Virus record (IMG/VR): IMGVR_UViG_3300020185_000013
Location: 62,001-126,000 of that record
Strand: one strand, 5' to 3'
Origin: a virus
Length of the DNA: 64,000 nucleotides
In this document: piece by piece, positions 9,240 to 36,772 of the stretch
Numbering within the stretch: position 1 is the stretch's first letter
Layout: each line of letters opens with the position of its first letter
Notes under the pieces: generated by a model
What the model was told of the DNA's origin: nothing
Databases searched by the model: none
Seen by the model: only the letters and a program-made list of their open reading frames with translations
Translations under genes and position numbers: made by a program

Positions 9240-11396
9240 ATGTCAAATTTTAACGACTTTATTAACAACTTAGACGAGTCTAGAAAGATTACTCTAAAGA
9301 GAAGATATACTGAAAACCATCCGGCAATTGAGGCTGGAAAGGTTGCAAGAGTCAGAAATAAAATGCTAGAAGCTATTGCTGATGGTAAGATTACTCAAGA
9401 AGAATTCAATGCAATCTTAAAAGAGTTTTCTACAGATTCTGGAAAATGGATGCGTAGAAACGCAAAATACTTCTCGGTATCTGAAGATGGTATTTCACTT
9501 TCAACCTTTGGTAAAAGAGCACTTTCATCAGTTACAGTAAATGAAAGCGAAGAAATTCTATTCGAAGCAACCGTCGAAATGGACGCAATGGATCCAGATA
9601 ACAAAGACTTCTTAAAGTTCTTAAAGAAGCATAGAGTTAAGATTATTAATAAAGAAATGGAAGGTCCAGGTGGTGGAACTCCAGTTATTACAATGCAAGG
9701 TAAAAGAAAGGATCTTGAGGCAGTATTAGCAGACGAAGAGTTTGGTTGGGCTGATCTAGATCTAGCAGAATATATTGAAGAATCAGTAGTTACTGAAAAC
9801 TATGAAGTGATCTATAGCGATGGTGTAAGTGCTATGAAAAAATTCAGAAGTGAAAAACAAGCTCTTGACTTCATGAAGCAAACCATTGCTTCTAACAAGA
9901 AATTAAGAGATATAGCAGTCTACAAACCGGGTATGCATTCAACTACTCAAACTGAATTAGTTGTTAAATTCTGGGGAGATGGTTCTTATTTAGATAATGT
10001 TTCTAAGAAGGATCCAGAATTAGCTGCTAAGAAATTAGAAGAATCAGTAGATGCTGATCATGTTGAAGAGGGTAGAGCATTTGTTGCAGCTGCTAGAAAG
10101 GCAAAAGATGAAGGCAAGGAAGAATTTGAATATGATGGCAAAACTTACCCAGTAACTATCAAAGAAGAAACAGAAACAGAAGATATAAAAATGGAAAACA
10201 AAAGAATGTTTGAATCATTTACTAATTTTGTAAATAATTTATCAGTGAACGAAGATGTATTCGCTGATTTAGAAGCTGCTATTTCAGACATGGACTTTGA
10301 TGCATATCAAAACCTAGCATTTGAATTTGGAGTAGACGATGGAGATCCAAACCAAATGATGGATTTTATTTACAATGAGCTTGACAAGAAGGGAGCTAAA
10401 CTACTAATTAAGAACATTAATAAAGGAGTTTATGAATCTGTAGTTAACGAGGCATTTAGTTCAATGAAACTACAGTCAATCTTAACAAGTGCAGGTTCTA
10501 TGCCAAAAGATTTTGCTAAGGCTTTTTACCAAATGGCTAAAATCCAATTAGATAAAGTTCAAGATGTTGATATTATCGAAATAGATCCAGAGCAGGCTAG
10601 AAAAGAAAAGAGAAAAAGCGCAGTATACCTATACTTCACAACAAATGAAAAACCAAACCCATATGCTGGTAGAAATTCTTGGGGAGTTACAACAATTCCA
10701 GGAAACACACTGCTTGGAGCAACTAATGGTTCAAACGAATGGCTAGCTACAGATTACGCAAGATCTTGGGGATCTGATAGAACAAAGACGTTATCTAAAA
10801 CTAAGAGAAATGACGGATCTGGTTTCGGAAAAAGTGCAGCTAATGATACTTGGGGTTCAGGTATTTCAAGTCTATCTAAAGTTGCTGAACTTGCTGATAG
10901 AGCATACGTTCTAGACTTAGATATTTTAAGAGCAAGATATTCATCAACCGCAAAAAGAGATGAAAGAACCGCTGCTAAAAAAGGAGCAACTGCGTTCCAG
11001 AGTGATAAGGACTTCAAGAAACAAAATCTTGACAGATACCATACTATTTTAGCAGACAGAGCAGCTTCAATGCCAGTAGACAAAGAGGTTCTAAAAGCAA
11101 TTGATGTAGTTACCTCTCAAATTAAAGATGGTTTAGCTACTGGTGAAAAAGGAAAGTATGGAGACGTTATTATTGGAAAGGATCCTAAAGGCCGCGAGGT
11201 TAAACTAAGAGATGCTTCTAACGTAATGCAAAATCTTCTTGATGACTTTAACAGATATGTAGATTACACTGAGCAAGCAAAGCGTGAGGAAGAGGCAGGT
11301 TATGGTAGCGATTACTATGCAAGAGAAGTGAAGAACTATGCTAAGTCAATTAAAGACAGAATCTCTAAGATTGAAAAAATGGATTACGTTTGGTAA
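9240..11396 (+). CDS. Large multi-module probable internal virion protein
   Basis: 718 residues, no overall family recognised. N-terminus MSNFNDFINNLDES is leader-like. Residues about 278-312 contain G-K-E-E-F-E-Y-D-G-K-T-Y-P-V, the same block seen in the 4077 gene product. At residue 318 (base 10191) an internal Met begins MENKRMFESFTNFVNNLSVNE, a second leader-like sequence, so the gene looks like an in-frame fusion of two formerly separate internal-protein genes. Further x-x-E sites (for example Y-E-S-V-V-N-E-A) would allow multiple protease cuts. The C-terminal third (Y-F-T-T-N-E-K-P-N-P-Y, then long charged helices) is unrecognised. A late-promoter motif precedes it. Confidence 0.65.
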   Translation: MSNFNDFINNLDESRKITLKRRYTENHPAIEAGKVARVRNKMLEAIADGKITQEEFNAILKEFSTDSGKWMRRNAKYFSVSEDGISLSTFGKRALSSVTVNESEEILFEATVEMDAMDPDNKDFLKFLKKHRVKIINKEMEGPGGGTPVITMQGKRKDLEAVLADEEFGWADLDLAEYIEESVVTENYEVIYSDGVSAMKKFRSEKQALDFMKQTIASNKKLRDIAVYKPGMHSTTQTELVVKFWGDGSYLDNVSKKDPELAAKKLEESVDADHVEEGRAFVAAARKAKDEGKEEFEYDGKTYPVTIKEETETEDIKMENKRMFESFTNFVNNLSVNEDVFADLEAAISDMDFDAYQNLAFEFGVDDGDPNQMMDFIYNELDKKGAKLLIKNINKGVYESVVNEAFSSMKLQSILTSAGSMPKDFAKAFYQMAKIQLDKVQDVDIIEIDPEQARKEKRKSAVYLYFTTNEKPNPYAGRNSWGVTTIPGNTLLGATNGSNEWLATDYARSWGSDRTKTLSKTKRNDGSGFGKSAANDTWGSGISSLSKVAELADRAYVLDLDILRARYSSTAKRDERTAAKKGATAFQSDKDFKKQNLDRYHTILADRAASMPVDKEVLKAIDVVTSQIKDGLATGEKGKYGDVIIGKDPKGREVKLRDASNVMQNLLDDFNRYVDYTEQAKREEEAGYGSDYYAREVKNYAKSIKDRISKIEKMDYVW

Positions 11397-29424: not shown

Positions 29425-31020
29425 ATGGCAGGATTTACTAATAACAACAATGGTCCATTAAGTACCAATAAAAGACCTTTTAGACTTTCAGATTCTCTGA
29501 GAGCTCTTTCGTCGTTTGGTATGAGATATGACGACCTTGTATTAAGACAGTCTCAAGCAATTGGTCCAATGGAGGATCAAATAGGTTATGGTCAAATGAA
29601 CCCACTTGGATGGGACAATGATGATATCTATGGAGCTTTTGCTGCTCTTTCAATGACCGATATTAACCTAAAGAAAAACATTCCATTCTTTGATAAAGAC
29701 TATGTTGGAAAAAGAGACGACTTAAGAAGATTCTCGATGAATGATGAGATTGAGGATATCTTAGACATTTTAAGTGATGAGACGATTGTTTATGATGATA
29801 AGAATTTCTTTTGTCAACCTGAAATTTTAGGAATGGATGCATCTGGAGATGTTGAAAAGGACCTTAACAAATACTTTAAGCAAATCTATCAATACTTTGG
29901 ATTCACTCAAGATCAATCAGCATGGTACTATTTTAGAAAGTTCTTAATTGATGGTTACCTTGCATTTGAAATTATCTATTCACCGGATCAAAAGACCGTA
30001 ATTGGTTTTAAAGAACTTGATCCAATCACACTAGTACCTGGTTATAATAAAGAGGACGGTAAGAAAGTTTGGATTCAATATAAGGACGATCCAATCAAGC
30101 AGAGAAAACTATACGATTCTCAAATTGTATACATCTCATATTCGTCAATTACAACCGCATCTAGAGTTTCATACGTTGAAAGATTGGTTAGATCGTATAA
30201 CCTTCTTCGCATCATGGAACACACTCGAGTGATTTGGGCTACAACTAACTCGAGCTTTAGAATGAAATTCATTATCCCAGTTGGGGGTAAATCTAAAACA
30301 CGTGCTAAACAATCGCTAGCTCAATTGATGCATTCATATAAAGAGAATGTTGAATTTGATTGGGATAGTGGAACTCTACAAACTGATGGTAAACCAATGC
30401 TACAGTTTAATAAAGAGTACTGGCTACCAAGTAAAGAGGGAGAGAGCCCTGAAATTGAAACACTTGGAGGAGACGGACCAGACCTATCAGATACAGAAGC
30501 ACTAAAATACTTTGCTGATAAACTAAAACACGTTTCAAAGATTCCGTATTCACGTTTCCTATATGAAGACGGCGGTGGTGATTTCAATATGGCTGCTGAT
30601 GGTATGATTCGCGATGAAATTAAATTCTCTAAATTCGTTAAGCGTTTAAGATCTACATTCCAAGAGATTTTGGTTAAGCCATTATACTTGCAAATGTGTC
30701 TTAAGTACCCTGAATTTGAGAACGATCCACAATTCAAAACTCAAGTTGCTCTAAGATTTAACGAAGAGAACGTATTTGCTGAACTTAAGAATTACGAAAT
30801 AATGGAGCGTCGCCTAGACTTTATTGGTCAAATGCGCGATAGTCTAGTAGAAACCAATCCAGAAACAATGGATGAAGAATACTTCTTCGATATGGACTTC
30901 CTAGTTAAGAAATACTTAAAAATCAACGATGATGATTTAGCAGCTAATGCAGCAGCAAAAGCATCGAAAGCAGCAGAAGAGGCTGGAGAGGAACCAGAAG
31001 ACGAAATGGGCGGATTCTAA
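29425..31020 (+). CDS. 20: Portal protein (gp20-like)
   Basis: 531 residues (T4 gp20 524). Twelve copies form the vertex through which DNA enters and leaves and which nucleates the head. Diagnostic segments: D-E-I-E-D-I-L-D-I-L-S-D-E, the D-P-I-T-L-V-P region, the R-V-I-W-A / F-I-I-P-V-G crown region, W-L-P-S-K-E-G-E-S-P-E-I-E-T-L and Y-F-A-D-K-L-K-H-V-S-K-I-P-Y-S-R. The C-terminus is an Ala/Glu-rich tail. Position before the core protein, protease and capsid genes reproduces T4 order 20-67/68-21-22-23. Confidence 0.92.
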   Translation: MAGFTNNNNGPLSTNKRPFRLSDSLRALSSFGMRYDDLVLRQSQAIGPMEDQIGYGQMNPLGWDNDDIYGAFAALSMTDINLKKNIPFFDKDYVGKRDDLRRFSMNDEIEDILDILSDETIVYDDKNFFCQPEILGMDASGDVEKDLNKYFKQIYQYFGFTQDQSAWYYFRKFLIDGYLAFEIIYSPDQKTVIGFKELDPITLVPGYNKEDGKKVWIQYKDDPIKQRKLYDSQIVYISYSSITTASRVSYVERLVRSYNLLRIMEHTRVIWATTNSSFRMKFIIPVGGKSKTRAKQSLAQLMHSYKENVEFDWDSGTLQTDGKPMLQFNKEYWLPSKEGESPEIETLGGDGPDLSDTEALKYFADKLKHVSKIPYSRFLYEDGGGDFNMAADGMIRDEIKFSKFVKRLRSTFQEILVKPLYLQMCLKYPEFENDPQFKTQVALRFNEENVFAELKNYEIMERRLDFIGQMRDSLVETNPETMDEEYFFDMDFLVKKYLKINDDDLAANAAAKASKAAEEAGEEPEDEMGGF

Positions 31021-31036
31021 AAAAGATAAATAGTTT

Positions 31037-31408
31037 ATGAAATACGTAAAATTATTTGAGCAGTTCATCAAAGAGAACACAGCAAAACCAAATCCAGATT
31101 CGGATGTTGTTGCTGATGACATCACACTTGAAGATGAAAGAGTTATTAGCTCAGCTGAAATCATTGGCGCTATAATTAATAGTGAAAGTGAAAAAGAGCT
31201 AGAGGATTACTTTTATGATAAATATGGTCAAACTGCATTTAGAGCAGGAGAACTAGCTGGGATTAAACAACTTTGGAATGAATACCAAGCCGAAGTTAAA
31301 GAATTAGAAGCTGAAGAGGAAGGAGAGGCTCCGGCTACAGAAGGAGAACCTGAAGCTGAAGGAGAATCTGAAGATGGTGCAGCTGACGATATTCTAGACG
31401 ACCTATAA
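31037..31408 (+). CDS. Acidic prohead core protein with capsid-targeting leader (gp67/68 position)
   Basis: 123 residues starting MKYVKLFEQFIKEN, a canonical copy of the shared leader with a possible protease site after I-K-E. The middle is helical and the C-terminal 40 residues are Glu/Asp/Ala-rich, ending D-I-L-D-D-L. Location between portal and protease is exactly that of the T4 prohead core proteins gp67 (PIP, very acidic) and gp68. This is the best contextual link between the leader and head assembly. Confidence 0.65.
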   Translation: MKYVKLFEQFIKENTAKPNPDSDVVADDITLEDERVISSAEIIGAIINSESEKELEDYFYDKYGQTAFRAGELAGIKQLWNEYQAEVKELEAEEEGEAPATEGEPEAEGESEDGAADDILDDL

Positions 31409-31428
31409 AAGTTTATCATAATAAAAAG

Positions 31429-31440
31429 ATATATAAAAAA
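31429..31440 (+). promoter_or_regulatory. Late-promoter-like motif GATATATAAAAA
   Basis: GATATATAAAAA lies 18 bases before the start of the protease-scaffold gene. Confidence 0.55.
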
Positions 31441-31457: not shown

Positions 31458-33458
31458 ATGGAAAATATGAAGGATCTTTTGATTGTAGAGATGTCATCGA
31501 ACGCTCTTTCTGTAGAAAATACAGAATCAAAAGACTATGTTTTGGAGGGTATCTTTGGTGAAATTGATGTCAAAAACAAGAACCAAAGAATTTATACTGA
31601 GGACGAATACGTACCTCAAATTGAAGCTCTTCAGCAGAAAATCAAGTCAGGTAAACTGTTAGGTGAATTAGATCACCCATCACAGTTTGATGTTTCTTTA
31701 AAGAACGTTTCACACGTTATCGAGGAACTATACTATGACGGTGAAAAGAAGCAAGTAAGAGGTCGTATCAGACTTTTAGATACTGATGCTGGTCGCCAAG
31801 CAAAAGCATTAGTTGATGCGGGCGTACCTCTACAAATCTCATCAAGAGCAGCTGGTGCAGTTGAATCAAATGGTCAAGTAAAAATCAAACAACTATTTAC
31901 TTATGACCTAGTAGCTGATCCAGGATTTGAAAACGCTGAACTAAAGCGCGTTAACGAATCTTACGGTTTTACTACTGAAGGTGGCTTGTATATTTATGAG
32001 ATAAATAAAGAACAAGAAAACATTACAACAACTCAAATTATAGAAAATCAAGAAATGGCAGACTTTGTAAAAGCTGACGACTTCAACAAGTACACTGAGT
32101 ACCTTGCAAATGAAATCAAGTCGTTAAAAGAAGCAATCGAAACAACGAACCAGCCTGTTGAGAGTGAAGTATCTGAAGCAGATCTAAACGCTGTTAGAGA
32201 GCACAACGACCACATTGTTGAGAACTTTAACAATCTTTCAGAGTACGTTAAGTACCTTGCAGAAAAGCTAGATCAATCAATTCAATACTCTGAGCATGTA
32301 GCTGAAAAAGCTGATCAAGGAATTCAGTACTCTGAAGAAGTAGCTGAAAAACTAGACCAGTCAATCCAATACACTGAGCATTTAGCAGAGGGTATGGAAA
32401 AGGTAAAAGAATACGCTAACTATTTAGCTGAAGCTCACAATGAGAACACAACTTCAGGCGAAAAGTTAATCGAGTACGTTGACTACCTAAAACAAAATCT
32501 ACAGTCAGTAACTGAATACGCTCAGTACATTGCTGAATCTATCAACGAAAATCTAGTAGTTGAAGAATTAGGCGAAGGATCAGATGATGAAGGTGCTGCT
32601 AAGGATATGGAAGAAATCGAAAAGAAAGATTCTGAAGTTGGTAACAACGCTGAAGAAGGAGATGTAGAAGGAGAAGAAGTAGCTCTACCTGCAGAAGAAA
32701 TCGAAGCAGAAGACACAAAAGTAAATACTGAAGCTGATAAGAAAACTACAGATACTTCAGCTGAATTAGAAGCAGATCTAGAAGGAGATGCAGACGATGC
32801 TGGTAAAGAAGTAGTTGAATCTTCTGAAGAAGTTGAAGAAACTGAAGAAGTAGCTGGAGAAGAATCTGCTAAAGACATGGAAGAAATCGAAGATGAGCAC
32901 GAAGAAGAAATGGAAGAAGAAGTTTCTGCTGCTGAGGCTTACAAAAACGAAATCTCTAGCAAACTAAGCTCACTAGTTGAAGCTGCTACGAAGAAAGAAA
33001 ACGAAAATCCATCATTCTTTAAAATCGTTTCTTCAAACGTTCAAGAAAAGTACAACGCACTTAACGAAGATGCTAAGACTGAAGTTAGAAGAGCAGTTTC
33101 TAAGAGAGGCTTTATGACTGAATCACAAATCGAATCAATCATCGAAAGCTCTAATCTAATCGTAGAAAACAGAAATGCTGAACCGTTCTTCATTACTGCA
33201 ATGCCAGTAGAATACAAAGAAGCATGGGAAACTCTATCTGAATCTAAGAAGAATCAAATCATGGCTCAATCTAAGTACCACAAACTTGGAACTGAGTACC
33301 AGGTAAGAAACTTCTGGCAAACAAGAGACCTTAGAGAGACTGCTCCAGTAATGGAAAAGCTTGAAATGGTTAAAGAATCTAAAGAAGAAGAAAAGAAAGG
33401 TCTAGGATATGATATAACTTCATATGCTGAACAATTCAAAAAGAGATTCAATAAATAA
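31458..33458 (+). CDS. Prohead protease fused to scaffold (gp21-gp22-like)
   Basis: 666 residues, against separate T4 gp21 (212) and gp22 (269). Residues about 25-170 are a gp21-type serine protease: L-E-G-I-F, then G-E-L-D-H73-P with the catalytic His, Q-I-S-S-R-A-A-G with Ser128/129, and the Y-D-L-V-A-D154-P-G-F segment. Residues about 200-365 are heptad repeats built on Y-x-E-x-x-A-E-K-x-D-Q-S-I-Q (coiled coil). Then a Glu-rich acidic stretch (about 370-490) and a C-terminal helical domain rich in gp22-like charged segments. E-rich x-x-E sites abound for self-processing. The leader L-I-V-E-M may be a first cleavage site. An alternative start at Met 4 (31467) is possible. Confidence 0.85.
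   Translation: MENMKDLLIVEMSSNALSVENTESKDYVLEGIFGEIDVKNKNQRIYTEDEYVPQIEALQQKIKSGKLLGELDHPSQFDVSLKNVSHVIEELYYDGEKKQVRGRIRLLDTDAGRQAKALVDAGVPLQISSRAAGAVESNGQVKIKQLFTYDLVADPGFENAELKRVNESYGFTTEGGLYIYEINKEQENITTTQIIENQEMADFVKADDFNKYTEYLANEIKSLKEAIETTNQPVESEVSEADLNAVREHNDHIVENFNNLSEYVKYLAEKLDQSIQYSEHVAEKADQGIQYSEEVAEKLDQSIQYTEHLAEGMEKVKEYANYLAEAHNENTTSGEKLIEYVDYLKQNLQSVTEYAQYIAESINENLVVEELGEGSDDEGAAKDMEEIEKKDSEVGNNAEEGDVEGEEVALPAEEIEAEDTKVNTEADKKTTDTSAELEADLEGDADDAGKEVVESSEEVEETEEVAGEESAKDMEEIEDEHEEEMEEEVSAAEAYKNEISSKLSSLVEAATKKENENPSFFKIVSSNVQEKYNALNEDAKTEVRRAVSKRGFMTESQIESIIESSNLIVENRNAEPFFITAMPVEYKEAWETLSESKKNQIMAQSKYHKLGTEYQVRNFWQTRDLRETAPVMEKLEMVKESKEEEKKGLGYDITSYAEQFKKRFNK
32240..32560 (+). 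repeat. Heptad repeats in the scaffold region
   Basis: At least five imperfect copies of a roughly 14-17-residue unit (consensus Q-Y-S/T-E-x-x-A-E-x-x-D-Q-S-I) lie within the protease-scaffold gene. They are consistent with an elongated coiled-coil scaffold rod. Confidence 0.6.
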
Positions 33459-33551: not shown

Positions 33552-35009
33552 ATGGCAAATTTAATTAATGAGGCAGAAATCAGAAGTACTTGGGCTCCTG
33601 TAATTGAGGAAGCAACTGGTATCAATGATTCTAACAAGCTGGCTTGGATGTCAACTTACTGTCACAACCACAAGCTATACGAAGATGCTAACATGATGAG
33701 CTTAGGTTCAGTTGGTTCTTTCAATAGCATGAACATCGGAGGTATGGGCGCTGTAGTTCTACCAGACACGGCAACTGGATTTGACGCACAAAGAGGTTCT
33801 GGAGACAAAGCTCCAACTCTACTTCCACTAGCAATGCAAGTTGCTGCACAAACAATCGGTCTAGATTTAGTACCGGTAATCCCAATGGCAGGTCCAATGG
33901 GTCTTTTATCTTACCTAGACTTCGTATACGAAGGTGGTAGAACTGATAACGACGTAACTCCAACTTACGTAAAAGTTGATGGTACTGGCTTATCTGTTAA
34001 AAACGACGGTCTATCTCCAGCATCTGATTACGCAGTATTAGTTGGTACTTCACGTCTAGACGGTGTAGGTATCTACAAAATCACTGAAGCTGGTGAAGCT
34101 GCAGTAGCAGCTGGTGGTACTATCGCAGGTCTATTCAACGGTACTAAGATTGTAGTATCTCTAGTAGCTGCTCTAAACGACCACATCCCAGGATTCTCTG
34201 GTAATGAGAACGCTGATGAGGATCTACTAGATGCTTCTCCATTCTCAAGAGAAGTTGGTGAAAGAACTCCTGATAACATCATGGGTCTTTCTCTATTCAG
34301 CAAATCAGTTGAAGCTGAGACTTTCCAAGTTGCAGCTGCAGTAACAAGAGAGCAAGTTCAAGACCTTAAGCAATTCGGTGTTGACGCAGTAGCTCAAGTT
34401 GAAGCAGTTTTAACTAACGAGTTAACTCAGTCAATCAACTCTTACATCCTAGGTACTATGAGATCTATGGCTGAATCTAAATTAGGTGCTCTAGCACTTG
34501 ATTACTCAATCGTTGGTGGTAACACTTACGGTGATCACAACAGAAGAATCTTAACTCACGTACTTGCTGCAGCGAACTTAATCGCTAACAGAGGTCGTAG
34601 AGGTGCAGGTAACTTCGCAGTAGTTGATGCTAAAGTAGCTTCAGCTCTACAAGGAGTTGCTGGATTCGTTCCAAACCCAATGGCTAACACCATTTCACAA
34701 GTTGCAGGTGCAATCTACCCAGTAGGTTCTGTAGCTGGTATCAATATCTACACTGATCCAAGACTTCCATTCGATGGAAAACAAGTTGCGGGAGAGGAAA
34801 CTCACGAAGTTCTAGTAGGTAGAAAAGGTGATGGTAACGGTGCAGGTCTAGTATTCATGCCATACCTAATGGCTGAATCAGTACAGACTATCGCTGAAGG
34901 TACAATGGCTCCTAAGGTAGCTGTTAAATCTAGATTCGCTCTAGTAAAAGCAGGTTTCCACCCAGAGACTCAGTACCACAAATTTAACATCACAGGTCTA
35001 GAACTATAA
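33552..35009 (+). CDS. 23: Major capsid protein (gp23-like)
   Basis: 485 residues (T4 gp23 521). The N-terminal 45 residues resemble the T4 delta-piece (N-E-A-E-I-R-S-T-W-A-P-V-I-E-E), with a plausible protease cut after K-L-Y-E44. Next come N-I-G-G-M-G-A-V-V-L-P and the HK97-fold body with conserved stretches P-M-A-G-P-M-G-L, a G-R-R-G-A-G-N-F-A-V-V block and C-terminal F-M-P-Y-L-M / S-R-F-A-L-V-K-A-G-F-H-P. Of 16 Arg codons, 14 are AGA, matching the phage tRNA-Arg(UCU). Own late promoter upstream and a strong terminator downstream. Confidence 0.92.
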   Translation: MANLINEAEIRSTWAPVIEEATGINDSNKLAWMSTYCHNHKLYEDANMMSLGSVGSFNSMNIGGMGAVVLPDTATGFDAQRGSGDKAPTLLPLAMQVAAQTIGLDLVPVIPMAGPMGLLSYLDFVYEGGRTDNDVTPTYVKVDGTGLSVKNDGLSPASDYAVLVGTSRLDGVGIYKITEAGEAAVAAGGTIAGLFNGTKIVVSLVAALNDHIPGFSGNENADEDLLDASPFSREVGERTPDNIMGLSLFSKSVEAETFQVAAAVTREQVQDLKQFGVDAVAQVEAVLTNELTQSINSYILGTMRSMAESKLGALALDYSIVGGNTYGDHNRRILTHVLAAANLIANRGRRGAGNFAVVDAKVASALQGVAGFVPNPMANTISQVAGAIYPVGSVAGINIYTDPRLPFDGKQVAGEETHEVLVGRKGDGNGAGLVFMPYLMAESVQTIAEGTMAPKVAVKSRFALVKAGFHPETQYHKFNITGLEL

Positions 35010-35821: not shown

Positions 35822-36772
35822 ATGAAGCTATCTAAGAAATTGATGCTATTTGAAGAGTTTACCGAGGTAAAGACTGATGTTGATGTTAAGGTAGACACTA
35901 ATGTAGATTTAGGGGCTAAAGGTGAAATCATCCAGGATGTCGATACTATTATTTCTAAACTTGAAGATCTTGCTAACAATCTAGGTTCTGATAGAGTTGG
36001 AACTACTGAAACTGCAAATGAGTCTAATGAAATTCTTGTTGAAGGCGCCGCTGATCAATTAATGAGCGCCGAATTATATATGTTACCATTAGTAGCTGCC
36101 GGTTTAGTTGGAGGTGCAGCAGTTGGAGTTGGAGTTCTTATAACAAAGGCAATAAAGAGAAAAAAGATCAAGAAGCTTTTTAGTAAAGAGATTGAAAAGC
36201 CTAGACTAGAAGCCATGAAGCTTAAAATTCAAAAGGCTAAATTAGAAGGCGATGCTAAGAAAAAAGCTGAAGATAAAATTAAGGATCTTGAAACTGGGGC
36301 ATCTACAATGCAAAGTTCACTCGGTGAAAAGTACCCAAATTCAAAAGATCTTTTAGCTGCTCTTAATGCTGATCTTAATTTTAAGATAACATCTACCCTT
36401 ATAAAATCAGGAGCTCTTTCCACATCAGAACTTGAAAAGGCTAAGCAAACTAATGCAAACGCACAGAAAACTATTGAAACTGCAAATGCAAATGCAGCTG
36501 AACAAAAAGAAAAAGGAAAAGATTTAGCAGCAAACGCGACTGACGAAGAAAAGGATAAAATCAGAAAGGCTGCAGAAGAGGCTAAAGAAAAAATGAATGA
36601 CAAGGAAGACAATCCAAAGGTTAAAGCTGCTGAGGATAAAATTAAAGAATATGAAGATGCTATTGAACAACTGAGTAGTAAAAAAGATAAAGCATCTCAA
36701 GATAAAGTAGGAATATTACAAGCAGCGCTTGCTAATAAAAAGAAAGAATTAGAGAAGTTAAAAGAATCTTAA
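35822..36772 (+). CDS. Membrane-anchored coiled-coil protein with leader-like N-terminus
   Basis: 316 residues. N-terminus MKLSKKLMLFEEFTEVK is a variant of the shared leader with a possible cut after F-T-E. One strong transmembrane segment lies at about residues 85-107 (YMLPLVAAGLVGGAAVGVGV), followed by K-R-K-K and a long Lys/Glu/Ala coiled coil to the end. A late-expressed, packaged protein with one membrane segment could act at DNA entry, but that is speculation. The stop overlaps the minus-strand gene end by 4 bases. Confidence 0.6.
   Translation: MKLSKKLMLFEEFTEVKTDVDVKVDTNVDLGAKGEIIQDVDTIISKLEDLANNLGSDRVGTTETANESNEILVEGAADQLMSAELYMLPLVAAGLVGGAAVGVGVLITKAIKRKKIKKLFSKEIEKPRLEAMKLKIQKAKLEGDAKKKAEDKIKDLETGASTMQSSLGEKYPNSKDLLAALNADLNFKITSTLIKSGALSTSELEKAKQTNANAQKTIETANANAAEQKEKGKDLAANATDEEKDKIRKAAEEAKEKMNDKEDNPKVKAAEDKIKEYEDAIEQLSSKKDKASQDKVGILQAALANKKKELEKLKES

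Follow-up and report, generated by a model that had tools for sequence, protein, structure and literature searches.

A T4-type prohead protease fused to a scaffold-like protein, with a likely nested start for the scaffold part

Introduction

The T4 core contains several-fold more of the scaffold gp22 (about 576 copies) than of the protease gp21 (72-100 copies), and the two are encoded by separate genes in the order 20-67-(68)-21-22-23. In the viral DNA analysed here (the window, a stretch of 64,000 nucleotides taken from a viral record of 130,479 bases, where it spans positions 62001-126000), a single ORF of 666 amino acids occupies exactly the 67/68-21-22 slot. A sequence-only reading of this DNA had taken it for a protease and a scaffold in one polypeptide, forced by the fusion into a 1:1 ratio. 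Given the excess of gp22 over gp21 in T4, some device for making extra scaffold is expected. Is the fusion real and, if so, how could such a gene supply more scaffold than protease?

A gp21-type protease fused to a second domain

The ORF lies between gp20 and a small acidic ORF on one side and gp23 on the other:

29425-31020, plus strand: portal protein gp20 (Portal_T4, PF07230)
31037-31408, plus strand: small acidic ORF in the gp67/gp68 position, no family match
31458-33458, plus strand: protease-scaffold fusion ORF, 666 aa, ATG start, fused in 95 of the 95 loci with both parts
31458-32000, plus strand: T4 gp21-type S77 protease domain, residues 1-181, with H73, S128 and a conserved D154 (Pfam, PDB 5jbl)
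33552-35009, plus strand: major capsid protein gp23 (PF07068)

The N-terminal domain resembles T4 gp21 in both sequence and fold. Residues 26-138 match Pfam Peptidase_S77 (PF03420, 51.5 bits for a cut-off of 27), and the T4 gp21 structure (PDB 5jbl) matches residues 28-137 by sequence (E 9e-7) and is the top match of a fold search with the predicted model (E 3e-6). H73 and S128, the catalytic His and Ser, are invariant across 40 relatives; they align with alanines in 5jbl, which are probably the mutated active site of that construct. The earlier assignment of the N-terminal ~170 residues to the gp21 protease is thus borne out, and the conserved IVE11 and IYE181 motifs of the fusion are consistent with a putative activity at L/I-X-E.

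The fusion of this protease to a scaffold-like protein is real, and it is not unique to the source phage. When IMG/VR was scanned with the family alignment, at least 572 contigs were found to encode relatives, and 100 loci were examined. Protease and scaffold part share one ORF in 95 of these; of the other five, three are cut off by the contig end so that they begin within the scaffold part, and two retain just protease fragments where the contig ends. All 95 loci that hold both parts are therefore fused, as the sequence-only reading had proposed for this one. Metagenomic huge phages of 462-735 kb carry versions of 632-807 aa (LR756500-LR756504 and LR745206), which share the junction Met discussed below. 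The cultured Tenacibaculum phages PTm1 and pT24 also have protease and C-terminal domain in one frame (564 and 527 aa, annotated 'prohead core scaffolding protein and protease' and 'prohead core scaffold', respectively), located between the portal and capsid genes in PTm1. In the other cultured T4-like phages inspected, gp21 is short and separate: gp21 and an annotated gp22 are two genes in RB43, P-RSM4, S-CAM8, UB and phiM12, and RM378 has a short separate gp21 gene. A protease tree computed without the Tenacibaculum phages places the fused sequences in one group (support 95/86), a topology subject to long-branch caveats.

Two further loci may be mentioned. Prevotella phage Lak-A2 (L008:5917-7671) has a 584-aa ORF with a protease domain, an acidic region and a C-terminal domain that looks similar to the tandem units described below, but it lacks repeats and a clear junction start, and no gp23 was seen among the genes next to it. 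On a contig binned as SAR324 (L118:5001-6227), the gene version ends at 408 aa, after the repeats, and is truncated or frameshifted.

The C-terminal part as a probable scaffold

Downstream of the protease, the following features were found:

32055-33458, plus strand: scaffold-like product, 467 aa (position, helical repeats, acidic region, C-terminal helix)
32244-32552, plus strand: 14-residue helical repeats, residues about 263-365, several with L/I-A-E (autocorrelation maximum at lag 14)
32553-32927, plus strand: acidic region, residues 366-490, predicted disordered (structure model)
33003-33344, plus strand: C-terminal helical domain of two tandem units, residues 516-572 and 574-629 (hhalign; pLDDT 70-86)
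33417-33455, plus strand: C-terminal helix with a basic/aromatic end, KKRFNK (structure model)

The two tandem units match each other with an hhalign probability of 94% (E 1.2e-7). The 14-residue repeats are most evident in the huge phages ('YSEYIAENLDKNI'), and L/I-X-E motifs are over-represented in the scaffold part relative to shuffles (z 2.2-4.3). A structure model built with 7 sequences was poor (pLDDT 40); with 40 sequences the model was better (mean 57.6), the improvement concerning the protease and the C-terminal domain, and the protease alone matched a solved structure. The C-terminal helix with its KKRFNK end is possibly a capsid-binding tail.

From its position, repeats, cleavage motifs and composition, we infer that the C-terminal part is the scaffold: it sits where gp22 would be, its 14-aa repeats are rich in L/I-X-E, and no other gp22 was found in the six records searched. 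The 130-kb record and five others (123-234 kb) yielded neither a separate gp22-type scaffold (phrog_237) nor another copy of the fusion, so the claim that a separate gp22 gene is lacking holds for this record and five relatives. Like gp22, this part lies directly upstream of the gp23 gene and is predicted to be helical; it may, as gp22 is, be cut into fragments, and the cleavage motifs are enriched in it. Homology to gp22 is nevertheless not established. Compared profile to profile with gp22 of eight T4-like phages, the C-terminal part gave no significant match, either as a whole or after splitting into units (best pairwise E 0.002, hhalign probability 13%). Searches with the phrog_237 and phrog_38259 profiles gave no gp22 profile match, and when 39 C-terminal domains were compared with PHROGs, the scaffold family phrog_38259 appeared in 3 members only (best E 2.4). 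Matches in tblastn that run from gp21 on into gp22 of RB43-like phages were discounted, their score coming mostly from the protease.

The lack of significant profile similarity to gp22 is one argument for seeing in the C-terminal part a mere appendage that targets or inhibits the protease, with another, unrecognised protein acting as scaffold. There is a precedent in SPN3US gp245, which loses a C-terminal region believed to have a role in targeting the enzyme (PMC5694885), and other genes without assigned function lie near gp23 (for example 35822-36772). We nonetheless consider a mere tail very improbable, because (i) the size of the part, its gp22 position, its 14-aa helical repeats with repeated cleavage motifs and its acidic segment do not fit it, (ii) no gp22 family member occurs in six records and (iii) separate internal initiation of a tail, for which evidence follows, would make little sense.

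A probable internal start at the junction

Two features mark the boundary between protease and scaffold part:

32001-32054, plus strand: A-rich linker, residues 182-199, presumed initiation region of the internal start (codon shift, open frame)
32055-32057, plus strand: internal ATG, codon 200 (Met200), proposed start of scaffold alone (context rank, conservation, synonymous constraint)

Starts in this phage have no Shine-Dalgarno sequence and are rich in A, with maxima around -13, -12 and -3 that match initiation in Flavobacterium johnsoniae (PMC6847099). The sequence-only reading had raised the possibility of an internal start, and a strong start context is indeed present at 32055: in a start-context model trained on 114 other starts of the phage, this ATG ranks second among 691 in-frame internal ATGs. 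(The only one to outscore it, at window position 10191 (G000:C1:72191) in the ORF G000:C1:71240-73396, could be another nested or mis-called start.) Among 78 distinct homologues, the junction Met is in the same column in 77 and about three residues earlier in the remaining one; it scores best of all internal ATGs in 74 and first or second in all 78, with a median context score at the 75th percentile of true starts.

The nucleotides around this Met are constrained beyond the protein that they encode. Over 35 pairs, synonymous sites are more conserved at residues 193-202 (z 6.73) than anywhere else in the gene; this test replaced an earlier one with 4-6 pairs, which was weak and had other peaks. 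The next separate region, a weaker peak close to the end of the gene at residues 617-628 (window 33306-33341, z 4.4), counts as a point against the internal start. In the last eight codons before the Met, 90% end in A where 58% are expected, and Ile is encoded by ATA in 71% of cases as against 11% elsewhere, whereas ahead of three other conserved Met positions the share of A-ending codons stays close to expectation (53-62% vs 48-58%). The linker itself varies in length from 12 to 28 aa across homologues (61% A in the close group), but it is open in frame 0 in 78/78 and in each other frame in just 2/78. That it stays open despite this variation argues that the fusion is also selected, and its start-like codons then place the same DNA under two constraints, as an open linker and as an initiation region. 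The conservation of the fusion, the invariant Met and the nucleotide-level constraint around it are direct observations.

Could the 666-aa protein nevertheless be the only product, with protease and scaffold made 1:1 and separated by autocleavage alone, as the sequence-only reading had it? The ORF is continuous in all relatives, P2 and lambda have protease and scaffold in one gene (PMC8508860), and in PTm1 and pT24 the junction of the fusion has neither a Met nor a start-like or A-rich context, so a nested start is not needed by every fused phage. But the same two phages imply that the fusion as such does not require the Met, and an obligate fusion gives no reason for an invariant Met, a start-like context and a constraint exactly at the junction. 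We therefore regard it as improbable, and an enforced 1:1 ratio is not supported in the face of this strong comparative evidence for an internal start. Internal translation initiation at Met200 is strongly supported by the comparison of sequences, and the gene most likely gives two co-terminal products, the fusion and, by internal initiation, the scaffold alone.

A promoter-like motif inside the ORF

Scaffold alone might also be transcribed separately, and two motifs bear on this:

31428-31435, plus strand: GATATATA, late-promoter-like motif upstream of the fusion (score 16.0)
32000-32007, plus strand: GATAAATA, late-promoter-like motif inside the ORF (motif score)

Of the 23 copies of GATATATA in the genome, 18 lie at most 70 nt upstream of genes, and the motif may be the late promoter of the source phage's group, a variant of T4 TATAAATA. 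The sequence-only reading had seen no late motif inside the ORF, which proves wrong: GATAAATA lies 47 nt before the ATG at 32055 and has by far the best promoter score in the ORF. Its score is exceeded at only 21 of 130,463 positions on the plus strand, 18 of them training sites, and is reached nowhere on the minus strand.

The scaffold-only protein could thus come mainly from an internal late promoter rather than from internal initiation on the long mRNA, a reading that could hold together with the explanation that we prefer. We think it rather unlikely as the main source: the motif is common to close relatives and present in only 27/78 homologues, many homologues retain the Met and the A-rich region with a weak motif or none, and the best promoter site of the ORF falls at the junction in just 33/78. 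In addition, GATATATA is associated with gene starts more closely than GATAAATA, whose sequence is in part dictated by the conserved IYE-I-N codons. An internal promoter was accordingly rejected as a general mechanism; GATAAATA may add a scaffold transcript in the subgroup of the source phage and is not the conserved device.

A model for one gene with two products

T4 gp21 cleaves after L/I-X-E (PMC9026906), and two such motifs flank the protease domain on both sides:

31482-31490, plus strand: I-V-E, residues 9-11, putative N-terminal autocleavage site ((I/L)xE in 78/78 sequences)
31992-32000, plus strand: I-Y-E, residues 179-181, putative protease/scaffold release site ((I/L)xE in 76/78 sequences)

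The conserved IYE site, 12-28 residues upstream of the junction Met, probably frees the protease from the scaffold. We thus propose the following model. Translation from 31458 would yield the 666-aa protease-scaffold fusion, and initiation at ATG 32055, in an A-rich context devoid of Shine-Dalgarno sequence that is typical of Bacteroidota, would yield the 467-aa scaffold alone. The short product would supply most of the scaffold, the fusion, a minor constituent of the prohead core, would be carried there by the scaffold part common to both products, and the ratio of the two starts would set the protease dose. After assembly, the protease would release itself at IVE11 and IYE181 and then cut the scaffold at its numerous L/I-X-E motifs, which would make room for DNA in the head. 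That both proteins are made and in what ratio, that the cleavages occur, and that the C-terminal part acts as scaffold is what we infer. As a whole (one gene, two in-frame co-terminal products, autocleavage and a scaffold role), we hold this to be the best explanation of the locus and a probable one.

Relation to known systems

Compared with T4 genes 21 and 22, the locus has the same S77 protease, gene order and L/I-X-E motif; it differs in that T4 has two genes, where here there is one ORF with a proposed internal start. The arrangement is also reminiscent of two more distant systems. The lambda C protease belongs to a family unrelated to S77, and the lambda capsid lineage is different. In herpesvirus UL26 the release site lies upstream of the nested start, as IYE does here, and UL26.5 is expressed from its own promoter, whereas here the internal promoter-like motif is not conserved. 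In lambda C/Nu3, protease and scaffold are in one gene with the scaffold gene overlapping in frame (Shaw and Murialdo 1980, cited in PMC8508860); the likeness is that of a protease and a scaffold in one frame, a co-terminal internal-start product being what we propose here. Herpesvirus UL26/UL26.5 likewise makes protease and scaffold from overlapping genes, whose common C-terminus binds the capsid protein (PMC8539031). We take these parallels as a functional likeness.

It is tempting to speculate that a T4-type head system evolved a nested protease-scaffold gene like those of herpesviruses and lambda, here equipped with an internal start as well as an internal late promoter, and we advance this tentatively, as possible rather than probable. 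If true, T4 with its separate genes, the Tenacibaculum phages with just a fusion, and the source lineage and huge phages with a fused gene and a nested start would represent the steps of the process, and the scaffold that is missing in several huge-phage groups would be accounted for by the nested gene. It would be a way for a T4-like phage to fuse protease and scaffold yet keep control of their ratio. The locus offers a concrete scaffold candidate for abundant phages that probably infect Bacteroidota and for metagenomic phages of up to 735 kb, and the comparison with lambda and herpesviruses becomes testable in cultured relatives. Starts of the Bacteroidota type, devoid of Shine-Dalgarno sequences, can conceal nested genes from annotation. 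In the literature searched (open-licence papers only), we found no account of a T4-like protease-scaffold fusion or of its nested start, and the nested start seems undescribed.

Outside the window, the record also encodes a ribosomal protein bS21 (G000:C1:9247-9399; PF01165, E 8e-12). Since bS21 is also found in Bacteroidetes phages (PMC9723584), its presence supports a Bacteroidota host, which is probably that of the phage lineage.
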